Positions 7,414 through 64,000 of a stretch of 64,000 bases of DNA are shown here, one piece after another; within the stretch, counting starts at the first letter, position 1, and each line of letters starts with the position of its first letter. The DNA is taken from positions 682,001 through 746,000 of the forward strand of contig JAFKLS010000016.1 of NCBI GenBank assembly GCA_017304675.1, given 5' to 3'. Both the position numbers and the translations under genes were made by a program. The stretch is from Sphingobacteriia bacterium. GTDB taxonomy: Bacteria > Bacteroidota > Bacteroidia > Chitinophagales > Chitinophagaceae. The notes beneath the pieces are model-generated. The model saw only the letters and a list, made by a program, of their open reading frames with translations. It was not told the origin of the DNA and searched no databases.

Positions 7414-7995
7414 ATGTCTGAAGAAGTTGCTCAACAAAAAGAATCTAAATGGTATGTGCTCCGTGTGGTTAGTGGGAAGGAGCGCAGTGTAAAAGAATAT
7501 TTGGATAAAGACATAGCCAGAAGCGGATGGACAGAAATTATTAAGCAGGTATTTCTTCCAATGGAAAAAGTATATAAAGTGCAGAATGGTAAAAAAGTGA
7601 TGCGCGAAAAAAACTATTTCCCGGGTTACGTAATGCTTGAAGTGGCTGATGGAAAATTAACTGATGATATTATTCAGCACATCAGTAATATTTCTAACAT
7701 TATGCACTTTTTAACCGATGGTAAAGGTTCTAAAGGCAATATTATTTCCCTGCGTAAAAGCGAGGTGAATAAAATGTTAGGTAAGGTTGATGAGATGAAT
7801 GATCAGGGTATGACCATGAGCGAACCTTTCATTGTTGGTGAAACAATTAAGATTATTGAAGGGCCATTTAATGACTTTAACGGAGTGATTGAAGAAGTGA
7901 ATGATGAGAAGAAAAAATTGAAAGTAACAGTAAAGATATTTGGTCGTTCTACTCCTGTTGAATTAAATTATATGCAGGTTGAAAAATTAAGCTAA
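7414..7995 (+). CDS. nusG: Transcription termination/antitermination factor NusG
   Basis: A 193-residue NusG. The N-terminal NGN domain runs from KWYVLRVVSGKERSVKEYL to about residue 120, with PMEKVYKVQNGKK and KNYFPGYVMLEV. The C-terminal KOW domain is VGETIKIIEGPFNDFNGVIE (from about residue 138). It binds RNA polymerase beta-prime and couples transcription to Rho or to the ribosome. It normally precedes rplK, rplA, rplJ, rplL, rpoB and rpoC; here a terminator and an unrelated minus-strand gene follow. Confidence 0.97.
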   Translation: MSEEVAQQKESKWYVLRVVSGKERSVKEYLDKDIARSGWTEIIKQVFLPMEKVYKVQNGKKVMREKNYFPGYVMLEVADGKLTDDIIQHISNISNIMHFLTDGKGSKGNIISLRKSEVNKMLGKVDEMNDQGMTMSEPFIVGETIKIIEGPFNDFNGVIEEVNDEKKKLKVTVKIFGRSTPVELNYMQVEKLS

Positions 7996-8023
7996 TACAA
8001 AAGATAAAGATCTTATAAAAATT

Positions 8024-8050
8024 AAAGCTCCCAATTTGGGAGCTTTTTTA
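8024..8050 (+). terminator. Terminator after nusG
   Basis: AAAGCTCCCAA pairs with TTGGGAGCTTT almost without a loop gap, followed by T residues. It closes the secE-nusG unit and shows that the ribosomal protein/rpoBC genes are not simply displaced a few bases downstream. Confidence 0.9.
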
Positions 8051-8059
8051 TTAAGCTAT

Positions 8060-8440
8060 TTATTTCTTCTTTAATTTCTTCAACTCACTTTTTTCTTTAT
8101 TCTCTTTTATCCTGAATTGAATTATTTTTTTAATTAATGCTACTGGCAAAGTGTTGCTTATAGGAAACTGAACGGCGCCTTTAGAAGTTGTATATGCGGC
8201 CAACTCTTTTTCAAAATGTTTAATGCCCGATGCCGTTGGATATAAACCAATATGGCTGGTATGTGCAGCAAAATATACCAACATGCCATTATATTTATAG
8301 GCGGGCATATTGTAGCTGATTACTTCCAATGCATCGGGTGCAGTTTTTAAAACAATCTCTCTTAGCTGTTTTAAGAGTTGCTGGTGTTGTGCAGGAAAAC
8401 CAGCAATGTACTCATCAACATTTTTTACTGCCTTTTGCAT
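8060..8440 (-). CDS. DUF1801 / YdhG-like protein
   Basis: A 126-residue protein with the DUF1801 pattern: VDEYIAGFPAQHQQLLKQLR at the N-terminus, then ISYNMPAYKYNGMLVYFAAH and HIGLYPTASGIKHFEKELAA, and a lysine-rich tail. The function of the family is unknown; it has a YdhG-like fold. It lies 2 bases after the stop of the M20 peptidase gene and is surely co-transcribed with it, although no functional link is known. Confidence 0.75.
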   Translation of the reverse strand: MQKAVKNVDEYIAGFPAQHQQLLKQLREIVLKTAPDALEVISYNMPAYKYNGMLVYFAAHTSHIGLYPTASGIKHFEKELAAYTTSKGAVQFPISNTLPVALIKKIIQFRIKENKEKSELKKLKKK

Positions 8441-60519: not shown

Positions 60520-60661
60520 AATACTGCATTAACTGAACCGCTTCTTTTTTGCGATAATTCTTCATATTAATGTTGTAGTGATAGTTGCAAAATTATAACG
60601 ATTTAAATGTGTGATTGTTTATGTGCAACAAAAAATTTTTCATTCAAACAAAACAAACAAC

Positions 60662-61417
60662 ATGGCAAGGCAGAAAGGGATTTTAAAATTAGAAGGAACA
60701 ATCGGCAACATTACTTTTTACAAAAGTGCTGATGGTTATTTGGCCAGAGAAAAGGGTGGCATTGATGGTAACCGGATTGCTAACGATGCAGCATTTCAGC
60801 GGACAAGAGAAAACGGTGCAGAATTTGGAGCTGCAGGTATTGCGGGTAAAGTATTGCGAACAGCATTTCGTTCATTAACCATTAATGCTGCAGACAGATT
60901 AATGGTGAGCAGATTGACGAGAGAGTTTGTAAAAGTGATTCAGGAAGACCAAACCAACACTCGTGGCCAAAGAAATGTAATTGATGGCGAAGCGGCTTTA
61001 TTGCAGGGCTTTGAGTTTAACGAACAAGGTAAGTTAAGCACTACGATGTATGCACCCTATGATGTGGTGATCGATCGTGTTGCAGGAACATTGGTGGCCA
61101 CTATTCAGCCTTATGTATCTGATGTAATGATTAATGCACCGAGTGGAGCAACGCATTACAAAATTGTTGCAGCAGGAGCGGAGATTGATTTTGAAAATAA
61201 AACCTATGTTATTGACAAGAAAGAAAGTGCACAGCTGCCATGGGATTCTGCGGCTACGGCATTGCTAACACTTTCTTGTGCTGTAACAGCTGCGAGTACA
61301 CATCCGTTATTCTTCGCATTGGGTATTGAGTTTTATCAGGAAGTAAACGGTCTGAAATATCCATTAAAGAATGGAGCATTCAACTCACTTTGTTTAGTGA
61401 AAGTAGATACCCCATAA
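60662..61417 (+). CDS. DUF6266-like protein
   Basis: A 251-residue protein. The start ATG at 60662 gives MARQKGILKLEGTIGNITFY, then SADGYLAREKGGIDGNRIAN, RTRENGAEFGAAGIAGKVLR and TRGQRNVIDGEAALLQGFEF, the pattern of DUF6266 as I remember it. It has no signal peptide or membrane span; the C-terminal half is predicted mostly beta. Function unknown. It is the first plus-strand gene of the island cassette, 26 bases before the DUF5675-like gene. Confidence 0.72.
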   Translation: MARQKGILKLEGTIGNITFYKSADGYLAREKGGIDGNRIANDAAFQRTRENGAEFGAAGIAGKVLRTAFRSLTINAADRLMVSRLTREFVKVIQEDQTNTRGQRNVIDGEAALLQGFEFNEQGKLSTTMYAPYDVVIDRVAGTLVATIQPYVSDVMINAPSGATHYKIVAAGAEIDFENKTYVIDKKESAQLPWDSAATALLTLSCAVTAASTHPLFFALGIEFYQEVNGLKYPLKNGAFNSLCLVKVDTP

Positions 61418-61443: not shown

Positions 61444-61848
61444 ATGGAACTGGAGCTTATCAGAACATATCACCCGAAGGGAACAAACGGAGCATTGCTC
61501 TATCAAAACATGCTTGTGTGCAATACCATAGAATTGCCCTGGCATGACAATCAACAACAAATATCATGTATCCCGGAAGGAAGGTATGCACTGAGAAAAA
61601 GATACAGTGAACATTTAAAATGGCATATTGAATTGTTGGAAGTGCCAAATAGAGATTTGATATTGATTCACTCTTACAATAATGCCTTACAGGAGGCGAA
61701 AGGATGTATTGCTCCGGTTTCAGTTTTAACAGGAGAAGGAACAGGAGACTCTTCAAGAGTTGCAATGAATAAATTGAAGGCATTGGTTTATCCTTCATTA
61801 GAAAATAAACAAGCAGTATTTATCACTATTAAAAAAGCGATCATATGA
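61444..61848 (+). CDS. DUF5675-like protein
   Basis: A 134-residue protein. CNTIELPWHDNQQQISCIPE, GRYALRKRYSEHLKWHIELL and LILIHSYNNALQEAKGCIAP follow the DUF5675 pattern. The His...Gly-Cys-Ile order near residues 78-91 is similar to that around the active Cys of L,D-transpeptidases, which hints at a cell-wall activity; this is a guess. Its stop overlaps the next gene's start by 4 bases. Confidence 0.7.
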   Translation: MELELIRTYHPKGTNGALLYQNMLVCNTIELPWHDNQQQISCIPEGRYALRKRYSEHLKWHIELLEVPNRDLILIHSYNNALQEAKGCIAPVSVLTGEGTGDSSRVAMNKLKALVYPSLENKQAVFITIKKAII

Positions 61849-62081
61849 TTTTGATTCAAAGGATACAATCACCTACTCCAACATTTTTTAAGAAGCTGCG
61901 TAATATGGGGTTAGCGTTAACTGCTGTGGCCACTGTAATTGCAACAGCACCGGTGACTTTGCCTGCAGCAGTGATAACCTTTGCAGGTTATGCAGCAGTG
62001 GCAGGAGGAGTGATCAGTGCAGTGAGTCAGTTAACGACAAACAATGATCATTCAACAATACCGGGAGGAAAAGATGGATAA
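61845..62081 (+). CDS. Small membrane protein of the island cassette
   Basis: A 78-residue protein with a basic N-terminus (FFKKLRNMG) and two short hydrophobic helices (LALTAVATVIATAPVTLPAA and VITFAGYAAVAGGVISAVSQ). The tail is polar. It overlaps both neighbours by a few bases, a sign of translational coupling. No family recognised. Confidence 0.65.
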   Translation: MILIQRIQSPTPTFFKKLRNMGLALTAVATVIATAPVTLPAAVITFAGYAAVAGGVISAVSQLTTNNDHSTIPGGKDG

Positions 62082-62259
62082 TGTAACGATTAAAGCAGGA
62101 ACTACCGGAGGAACGTTGCTAGCTATTGCAGCGAATTTAAAAAGCGATGATGTAATAAAAACAATTGTACTCGGTAGTATAGGAGCAATAGTGAGTTTTT
62201 TTGTATCGCTTGCATTGAAGCTGTTGATGAAAAAGTTGAGAGAAGGAAGAAGCAAGTAG
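62074..62259 (+). CDS. Small holin-like membrane protein
   Basis: A 61-residue protein. The ATG at 62074 is preceded by GGGAGGAAAAG, a Shine-Dalgarno-like run. It has a mildly hydrophobic part (GGTLLAIAANL) and one strong span (IVLGSIGAIVSFFVSLALKL) ending in a basic tail (MKKLREGRSK), a layout shared by small holins. It overlaps the previous gene by 8 bases. Lysis function is not proven. Confidence 0.65.
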   Translation: MDNVTIKAGTTGGTLLAIAANLKSDDVIKTIVLGSIGAIVSFFVSLALKLLMKKLREGRSK

Positions 62260-62300
62260 TGAGGAGTAAATAGCAAGTAGGAGGAAGAAAAGAAAACAGG

Positions 62301-62333
62301 AAAAAGTCACCCCGAATGAGGGTGACTTTTTTA
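62301..62333. terminator. Bidirectional terminator in the island cassette
   Basis: AAAAAGTCACCC, a 7-base loop and GGGTGACTTTTTT. It ends the plus-strand genes; on the minus strand it starts at the stop codon of the DUF6943-like gene. Confidence 0.9.
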
Positions 62334-62759
62334 TTGTGCTTGATTGAAGTATGAATGAATGAGTGCTTGCTGTAGTTTTTGTGTTGTAGCAATTTGTTGA
62401 TGCAGATTTGTTTTTAACTGTTCTAATTTTGAAAGTGATTGTAAGACGGTTTGATATTTTTGCCAATGCTGCAGCATATATGGAGAAATAGAAGAAACAA
62501 CAGATTGCACACCTGCAATATTGATAAACTGAATAACAGAACCCCGATGATGTACACGAAATTTACCGGCCTGATGTAAGCCATAACACAACCAATAATA
62601 AAACTCGAAAGCCTGTTGATTGCTGCAACGAGCAACAAAACAATTAACCCAGGGATTAAAAGAAGGTTGGCCTGCATTATTGCCTTTTGATAAGATATAA
62701 AATGTGAAAGGCGGTTGAACTGCTGCAGGATGATAGCAACGAATTTGCAATGGTAACAT
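62331..62759 (-). CDS. DUF6943-like protein
   Basis: A 142-residue protein. PFTFYILSKGNNAGQPSFNP, NCFVARCSNQQAFEFYYWLC and YGLHQAGKFRVHHRGSVIQF match a Bacteroidota family I remember as DUF6943. A helical C-terminus (QSLSKLEQLKTNLHQQIATT) follows. I prefer this frame to two overlapping ones because only it shows a family pattern and a start and stop consistent with the terminator. Function unknown. Confidence 0.65.
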   Translation of the reverse strand: MLPLQIRCYHPAAVQPPFTFYILSKGNNAGQPSFNPWVNCFVARCSNQQAFEFYYWLCYGLHQAGKFRVHHRGSVIQFINIAGVQSVVSSISPYMLQHWQKYQTVLQSLSKLEQLKTNLHQQIATTQKLQQALIHSYFNQAQ

Positions 62760-64000
62760 AATACATATGCGCTGTTTTTATTAACGACACAAGATGCCAT
62801 TAGGACAGCGATAGGCAGTAACCATGCGTGTGTTGGGTATGAAAAGCAAGGTTGGTGCACAAAAAATACTACCTGTAATGAGCGATACTTTGGCGAAGCA
62901 AAAGCGAAATGAAGGGTGGAGATTTTTTTGCAAGCACTAACCAGCGAGTGAAATACAATGGAACGAAGGCCTTGCTGAATAATAGGAGCATAACTTGCCG
63001 CCTCGCTGTACGTGGTTTAAAAATTACCTCATTCAACAATTGCTTAAATTAACCTGTACTTATGTGCCTTACTTAATTGAATGAATTATATCAATCATCT
63101 GTTTAATCAATTCAAGTAAATGCACTGCAATTAATAACTTGATTTCAAGACTTAATTTTTGTTTTTGATGTTTGGGCATAATATGCTGTTTTTTCAGCAT
63201 CCTGCTCAAAGGGGAAGGCGGCTTCCCAAATCTGATCATTTGGTTTGGAATGGGAAAGGACAAGCTATGATCGGCTCTCAAGTGCCGGTTTGATGCAGTT
63301 GATTAGTGATTAAAGATGCACCGGCTAAACATGGTCAAGTGATGATAGTAGGGGGAAGTCGAGCCATGTGATCAGCAAGAAGGTAAAACAGCCCTGAGCC
63401 AAAAGAAGCAATGCCGTGCCGAAAACTTGGAGGCACTGTAGCGTAGAAGCATAGCGAGCCGTGTAGGCACAGGAGAGAGGAACGAACGGAAGTGCCATCG
63501 AGCCCCCACGTAGGGGCTGGACAGAAAAGTGCCGACTAAAAGGAGGCACGATGGACAGCTCCATAGGAGGCCGCCGAAGTACATTTCCCCAGAGGGTACG
63601 GAGGCAGCAGAACTATGCAAGTGAACCTTAGCGATGCTATGCGAAATGAGGTACGAATAAGCATTAGCAATCGCAAGGTGAAGGCAGCCGCAGTGGGGCT
63701 GACGGCGAGAAAAATTATGGGCAGCGGGTGAACTTTTATGCTACTGAGAGAATGAATTATGAGTGGAGCAAATGAAACCCAGTGAGTATCGAACGGGTGA
63801 ATGCAGCGAAACGAATAATTAATTGAATGAACGAAGTTGCATAAAAGGGCATAGTAGCTGCCGTGAGGAATGAGGAGGAACTGCAAGCAGCATGACAAAC
63901 TGCGAAGAGTAGCGGAGCACCCAAAGGGAATTGCAGGTGAGCAATACCATAGAAGTGTAATTATAAGTGTATTGCTGCTGCTGCAATGGTTTGGCGTGAT
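62760..64000. other. Long non-coding, purine-skewed, hairpin-rich region
   Basis: More than 1.2 kb without a convincing gene. From about 62880 on, and strongly from 63400, the plus strand is rich in G and A (GCGAAG, AACGAA, GAGTGGAGC words). Two 21-base hairpins of the form GTGCCGA...GGAGGCAC occur at 63416-63436 and 63529-63549, with a further GGCAC/GTGCC pair between them, AGCCCC/GGGGCT at 63501-63518, and ATGCTG/CAGCAT at 63183-63200. It could be a large structured RNA on the plus strand. The minus-strand open frames here have Ser/Leu-rich, non-protein-like composition. Confidence 0.55.

Follow-up and report, generated by a model that had tools for sequence, protein, structure and literature searches.

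The window, a stretch of 64,000 nucleotides from a Sphingobacteriia bacterium of the Chitinophagaceae, ends in one copy of a conserved family that is absent from Rfam 15 and occurs in many bacteria of one order. The family-wide unit lies on the + strand between positions 63382 (GGTAAAA) and 64036 (TTTTACC), with its last 36 nt beyond the window end; this copy measures 655 nt from one strand of the closing helix, P1, to the other. Base pairs of the unit covary across the family, and we think it probable that the family is an RNA with its own transcription unit. It is predicted to serve islands that carry the protein gene P252 in trans, either structurally or by forming the core of a particle with protein, as GOLLD and ROOL are thought to serve phages. 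The coordinates of the unit and of the genes before it are given in Table 1.

Table 1. Features of the RNA unit and of the island genes upstream (window positions)
Feature	Position	Strand	Remarks
68-aa small protein, divergent from P252	60313..60519	-	homologue in 24/36 loci
P252 gene, 251 aa (ORF start possible at 60611)	60662..61417	+	upstream partner in 30/36 distinct RNA loci
DUF5675 protein	61444..61848	+	Pfam E 3.4e-29; 8/36 loci
Small protein 1, hydrophobic by eye	61845..62081	+	11/36 loci
Small protein 2, hydrophobic by eye	62074..62259	+	10/36 loci
Terminator-like hairpin between P252 gene group and DUF6943	62300..62332		annotated on +, readable on both strands
DUF6943 protein	62331..62759	-	Pfam E 1.5e-40; 7/36 loci
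Large structured RNA unit	63382..64000 in window, true end 64036	+	24 distinct homologues, covariation
Closing helix P1, 5′ strand GGUAAAA	63382..63388	+	partner UUUUACC 64030-64036, outside window
Covarying hairpin, GTGCCGA...GGAGGCAC, first copy	63416..63436	+	double changes in 5/8 pairs
Second GTGCCGA hairpin	63529..63549	+	variable domain, alignable only partly
Purine-ladder arm, base GGCAGC...GCUGCC	63720..63862	+	helices 17-25 of predicted structure; loop table
Highly conserved 3′ domain	63861..64000, extends to 64027	+	basis of covariance model R1
Long hairpin of 3′ domain	63929..63988	+	strongest covariation

A preliminary description of this DNA had proposed a large structured RNA at 62880..64000 on the basis of repeated 21-nt hairpins. 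These hairpins are real. The motif GTGCCGA-N6-GGAGGCAC is present twice on the + strand with a spacing of 113 nt, as had been described, and its mean count in 100 shuffles was 0.00. The first copy is a helix conserved throughout the family, but the second lies in a domain that differs in length and sequence among homologues. Likewise, the RNA does run past the window end, but the proposed 5′ start was too far upstream, with most of 62880-63370 falling outside the family-wide unit. Copies with both strands of P1 span 581-806 nt by their nhmmer bounds. In a subgroup of homologues the shared sequence reaches as much as about 120 nt further upstream and also continues downstream, and thus the transcript could be longer than the unit. 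In the coordinates of this locus (L002; window position = L002 position + 61999), the gene-free stretch continues past the window to about L002:2200 and is followed by a gene for a KAP-family NTPase.

Homologues were collected with a search of relatives' DNA, a profile, and a sequence pattern, and this yielded 24 distinct copies. The region gave multi-piece matches in six relatives when 196 genomes were searched. A profile built from seven sequences additionally recovered the copy L108. The conserved pattern occurred in 25 stretches among 84,980 species genomes; nhmmer confirmed 22, all from records titled Bacteroidota or groups within it, and gave no match for the other three. Hosts include Flavisolibacter, Lacibacter, Deminuibacter, Ilyomonas, Paracnuella, and Paraflavisolibacter, as well as MAGs; Lacibacter and Ilyomonas belong to the Chitinophagaceae. 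Searches with the 3′-domain covariance model, whose counts are lower bounds owing to the stricter filters used with many genomes, gave 62 matches in a sample of the family, from 45 of 394 genomes (28 of 101 genera, maximum three per genome), matches in 21 of 396 genomes in a sample of the order, five of these outside the family, and matches in 3 of 395 genomes in a sample of the phylum, all within the family. There was no match above chance in Rfam 15 for this copy or six homologues. The searches did not show the phage setting suggested at first, with no match to the RNA in 50,697 phage records or in plasmid records and no confirmed match in viral contigs. As a separate observation, an interspersed repeat around ACAAGAGTGCGACGCAACGA, unrelated to the RNA, lies just beyond the window end at L002:2213-2282 (window 64212-64281). 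Of the 196 genomes searched 59 gave a hit, which in most of them is explained by this repeat; no copy of this repeat was found inside the window, allowing up to 3 mismatches.

For the analysis of structure we aligned 21 of the 24 copies; of the three dropped, one is truncated and two lack the 5′ half. One P1 strand is missing from three of the aligned copies (L116, L126, and L129). The predicted structure has 175 pairs. Compared with shuffles that do not preserve the relatedness among copies, and with slid partners, a control that favors a structure derived, like this one, from the alignment being tested, 93.2% of cells were paired (shuffles 85.0%, slid 29.9-48.5%) and 68 of the 175 pairs had double-sided changes (shuffle mean 38.4, slid 18-27; 0/500 shuffles), with a covariation score of 0.230 versus 0.103. 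Four of five measures were unmatched by any of the 500 shuffles, and the remaining one, the count of further pair types, was not unusual (72/500 shuffles). The fold given by the tool itself had double changes in 51 of 113 pairs. For the 3′ domain we used 53 model matches, of which 49 are distinct; here double changes occur in 29 of 40 pairs and 97.4% of cells are paired, values that are biased toward the model because these sequences were aligned to the covariance model itself. Double changes in the long hairpin of this domain affect 13 of 17 pairs in the 21 copies and all 17 in the 3′-domain set.

An energy-free scan of column pairs in 31 of the 36 loci described below returned 14 helices, nine of which, including the best five, match the predicted structure; the long hairpin tops the energy-free scan of all pairs. 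The ends of P1 also vary in a paired manner among the 21 copies, the outer pair being A-U in nine, C-G in eight, and unpaired in four, and the inner pair A-U in 11, U-A in eight, C-G in one, and unpaired in one. The search for homologues and covarying stems advised in the preliminary description thus had a strongly positive outcome, and covariation supports the large structured RNA suspected there. Extensive covarying structure, by which a large structured bacterial non-coding RNA is recognized, extends over at least 500 nt.

Helices of the 21 copies contain 122 G-U cells versus 43 A-C cells, as expected for an RNA made from the + strand, with the caveat that RNA energy rules favor G-U. Folding of the single copy gave z = -4.3 on the + strand versus -3.25 on the - strand, and one homologue gave -4.2 (20 shuffles each). 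Short helices, many with 1-3 pairs, make up the main arm and are split mostly by GA/GA or GNA/GNA loops. In these loops the outer G and A are fixed and the middle base is freer, and they may form stacked sheared G-A pairs. The distal arm is absent from this copy and present in most homologues.

We compared 36 loci with non-identical RNA copies, each oriented by the RNA. In 30 of them P252 precedes the RNA in the same orientation, at a distance of 0.5-7.4 kb. In the six loci without P252, the sequence upstream of the RNA is at least 8.9 kb long in five and just 2.2 kb in the sixth. RNA searches that were independent of P252 also recovered all loci but L166. P252 is upstream of the RNA, again on its strand, in two genomes (G162 and G194) from another family of the order as well. 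The pairing is one-sided, since among 40 further P252 loci (known holders of the RNA left out; many are short contigs) the RNA was found in four at E < 1e-5. There are 5864 homologues of P252, with up to 11 matches scored in one genome. Its predicted structure is confident, with one part made of helices and a C-terminal domain of beta strands; no convincing relative was found. The RNA had been said to follow island genes related to DUF6943 and DUF6266. It does follow island genes and the first of these assignments is correct, but P252 is not DUF6266, as there was no such Pfam match in any of 35 homologues at E 0.01. P252 itself has no Pfam match.

Other parts of the neighborhood recur as well. 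A protein of 62-68 aa is divergent to P252 in 24 of the 36 loci, and either DUF6876 (17 loci) or DUF6943 (seven loci) is encoded on the opposite strand between P252 and the RNA. P252 is preceded in nine loci (L037, L113, L121, L206, L208, L209, L212, L215, and L218) by a tRNA gene (Val, Arg, Asn, or Lys) of the same orientation, with 521-1016 nt between the end of the tRNA gene and P252. This suggests tRNA-associated integration; no direct repeat of the tRNA end of at least 11 nt was found downstream in these nine loci. Where one genome has three copies, a conserved left block is followed by variable genes and then by a conserved RNA block.

The unit would be transcribed on its own from the + strand, probably into an RNA of some 660 nt. 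Upstream of the RNA no promoter motif was enriched (TAnnTTTG in 5/36 loci versus a background of 12.8%), and no terminator was found after this copy. The terminator-like hairpin before DUF6943 would stop P252 transcripts ahead of the RNA; terminator-like sites are statistically weak, with 4 found versus 3.2 in shuffles. Such an RNA would act in trans, either structurally or at the center of a particle with protein. We infer this because no downstream gene family is conserved (none occurs in at least four of the 36 loci, one scattered case apart), because the genes between P252 and the RNA vary or lie on the opposite strand, and because the terminator-like hairpin separates the RNA from the P252 genes in this locus. 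In the model we have in mind, the highly conserved 3′ domain may bind a partner or another copy of the RNA, and the purine-ladder arm could supply a stiff rod.

An alternative, which we regard as unlikely, is that the structured RNA is itself the mobile unit, intron- or ribozyme-like and self-moving, with P252 as a frequent neighbor. The six loci without P252 and the presence of up to three copies per genome would fit this. So would the comparison of L157 with L207, which also counts for the reading that we prefer. These two share 735 nt at 92% over the RNA while their flanks differ; among matches of at least 60 nt they have one other stretch in common, of 102 nt, which follows the RNA in one locus and precedes it in the other. 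A GIY-YIG nuclease gene is also situated just upstream of the RNA in L160, and L113 and L121 have ORFs of equal length in that position. However, neither a reverse transcriptase nor a nuclease family is constant among the neighbors, Rfam has no match to introns or self-cleaving ribozymes, and no empty site was found in the few comparisons made.

It is unlikely, too, that the unit works as a structured single-stranded DNA site of the island, for example in replication origin function, packaging, or recombination, and not as an RNA. About 580-806 nt is long for a site of this kind, the excess of G-U over A-C cells argues for RNA, and the GA and GNA purine loops would be typical of RNA. These points have to be set against the result that neither a promoter nor a terminator was found, the replication-initiation-like gene downstream in this locus and in L036, the variable genes between the P252 block and the unit, and the position of islands beside tRNA genes in nine of the 36 loci, which speak for a DNA site.

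The position of the RNA downstream of P252 on the same strand in 30 loci, and the DUF6876 or DUF6943 gene that opposes it in between in 24 of the 36 loci, could also be explained by a leader, trailer, or sponge acting in cis on the P252 genes or on the next gene. We consider this quite improbable given that the distance from P252 to the RNA ranges from 0.5 to 7.4 kb with variable intervening genes, that no downstream gene is shared as described above, and that a terminator-like hairpin intervenes in this locus.

No conserved reading frame was found, which agrees with the earlier statement that the region has no credible gene. The + frames of 21 homologues each carry at least four stops (mean 12.8). 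In all 21 the - frames stay open over 116-248 aa, compared with a mean of 111 and a 95th percentile of 178 in single-base shuffles, and five of the 21 exceed the latter. These frames are broken among homologues because gaps are mostly not multiples of 3 (500 of 4033 pairwise gap runs are). The strand was also correctly described as rich in G and A, with a purine content of 61% in the homologues. A decayed protein gene or chance purine-rich spacer, for which the open - frames are the one argument, is barely credible since the gap lengths and the covarying pairs contradict it.

Group II introns are large structured RNAs in mobile DNA, and some exist without an intron-encoded reverse transcriptase; another large RNA, GOLLD, forms RNA-only nanocages. 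The new RNA is similar to group II introns in being a large structured RNA in mobile DNA. The Rfam intron models did not match this copy or six homologues, and no reverse transcriptase was found beside the RNA, the next ORF in this locus being the KAP NTPase, or among the neighbor proteins scanned. GOLLD and ROOL are large phage- and prophage-borne RNAs whose function is not known; GOLLD is often >800 nt and ornate, has a conserved 3′ and a less conserved 5′ region, and lies in accessory DNA often near tRNA genes, and ROOL is large and elaborate with no protein partner identified (PMC12286853). The new RNA resembles GOLLD in its large size and in a conserved 3′ domain versus a variable 5′ part, and it resembles ROOL in being large and elaborate. 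A single tRNA gene lies 0.5-1 kb before P252 in nine of 36 loci. It differs from GOLLD in having P252 beside it and no match in the phage records, and from ROOL in being found only in Bacteroidota, mainly in one family, and in having the purine-ladder arm. OLE is about 600 nt, multi-domain, and part of a ribonucleoprotein (PMC12286853 for part of this). The new RNA is of comparable size and also multi-domain; OLE, however, is reported mostly from Bacillota, in contrast to the Bacteroidota that carry the new RNA. The Rfam covariance models of GOLLD, ROOL, and OLE were unmatched by this copy and six homologues.

The best reading of these comparisons is that we are dealing with a new large structured non-coding RNA of genomic islands with a role like that of GOLLD and ROOL; it would be unrelated to both families because their Rfam models do not match it. 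A more specific and rather doubtful version is that this Bacteroidota RNA of about 580-800 nt uses its purine-ladder rod and highly conserved 3′ domain to build, from copies of itself or together with P252, a particle serving tRNA-flanked islands, which would have arisen independently as one more large RNA particle of the GOLLD/ROOL kind.

To our knowledge, few bacterial RNAs of such size and complexity are known, and most of them are without a function. This family would permit direct tests of the roles of giant RNAs in genomic islands outside phages and Bacillota. It occurs in cultured environmental genera (Lacibacter, Flavisolibacter, and Ilyomonas), the 62 model matches in a single family sample are available for comparison, and P252, which has thousands of homologues, is a candidate for its partner protein. 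The arm of repeated purine internal loops is unusual.

Several of the genes near the RNA show similarity to defence proteins (Avs2-like, Lit, a CBASS-type nuclease, and PifA/KAP), which is a lead only, as control neighbors score too. The KAP NTPase directly after the RNA (L002:2316-4328) has a strong PADLOC match to PifA (2.3e-58), and PDC-M04A and HEC-01-like defence genes lie downstream of another RNA copy at L117:4287-6812. The replication-initiation-like gene of this locus is on the minus strand and is split over overlapping frames (L002:7116-7724 and 7721-8110); in some relatives it encodes a single protein of 284-353 aa.
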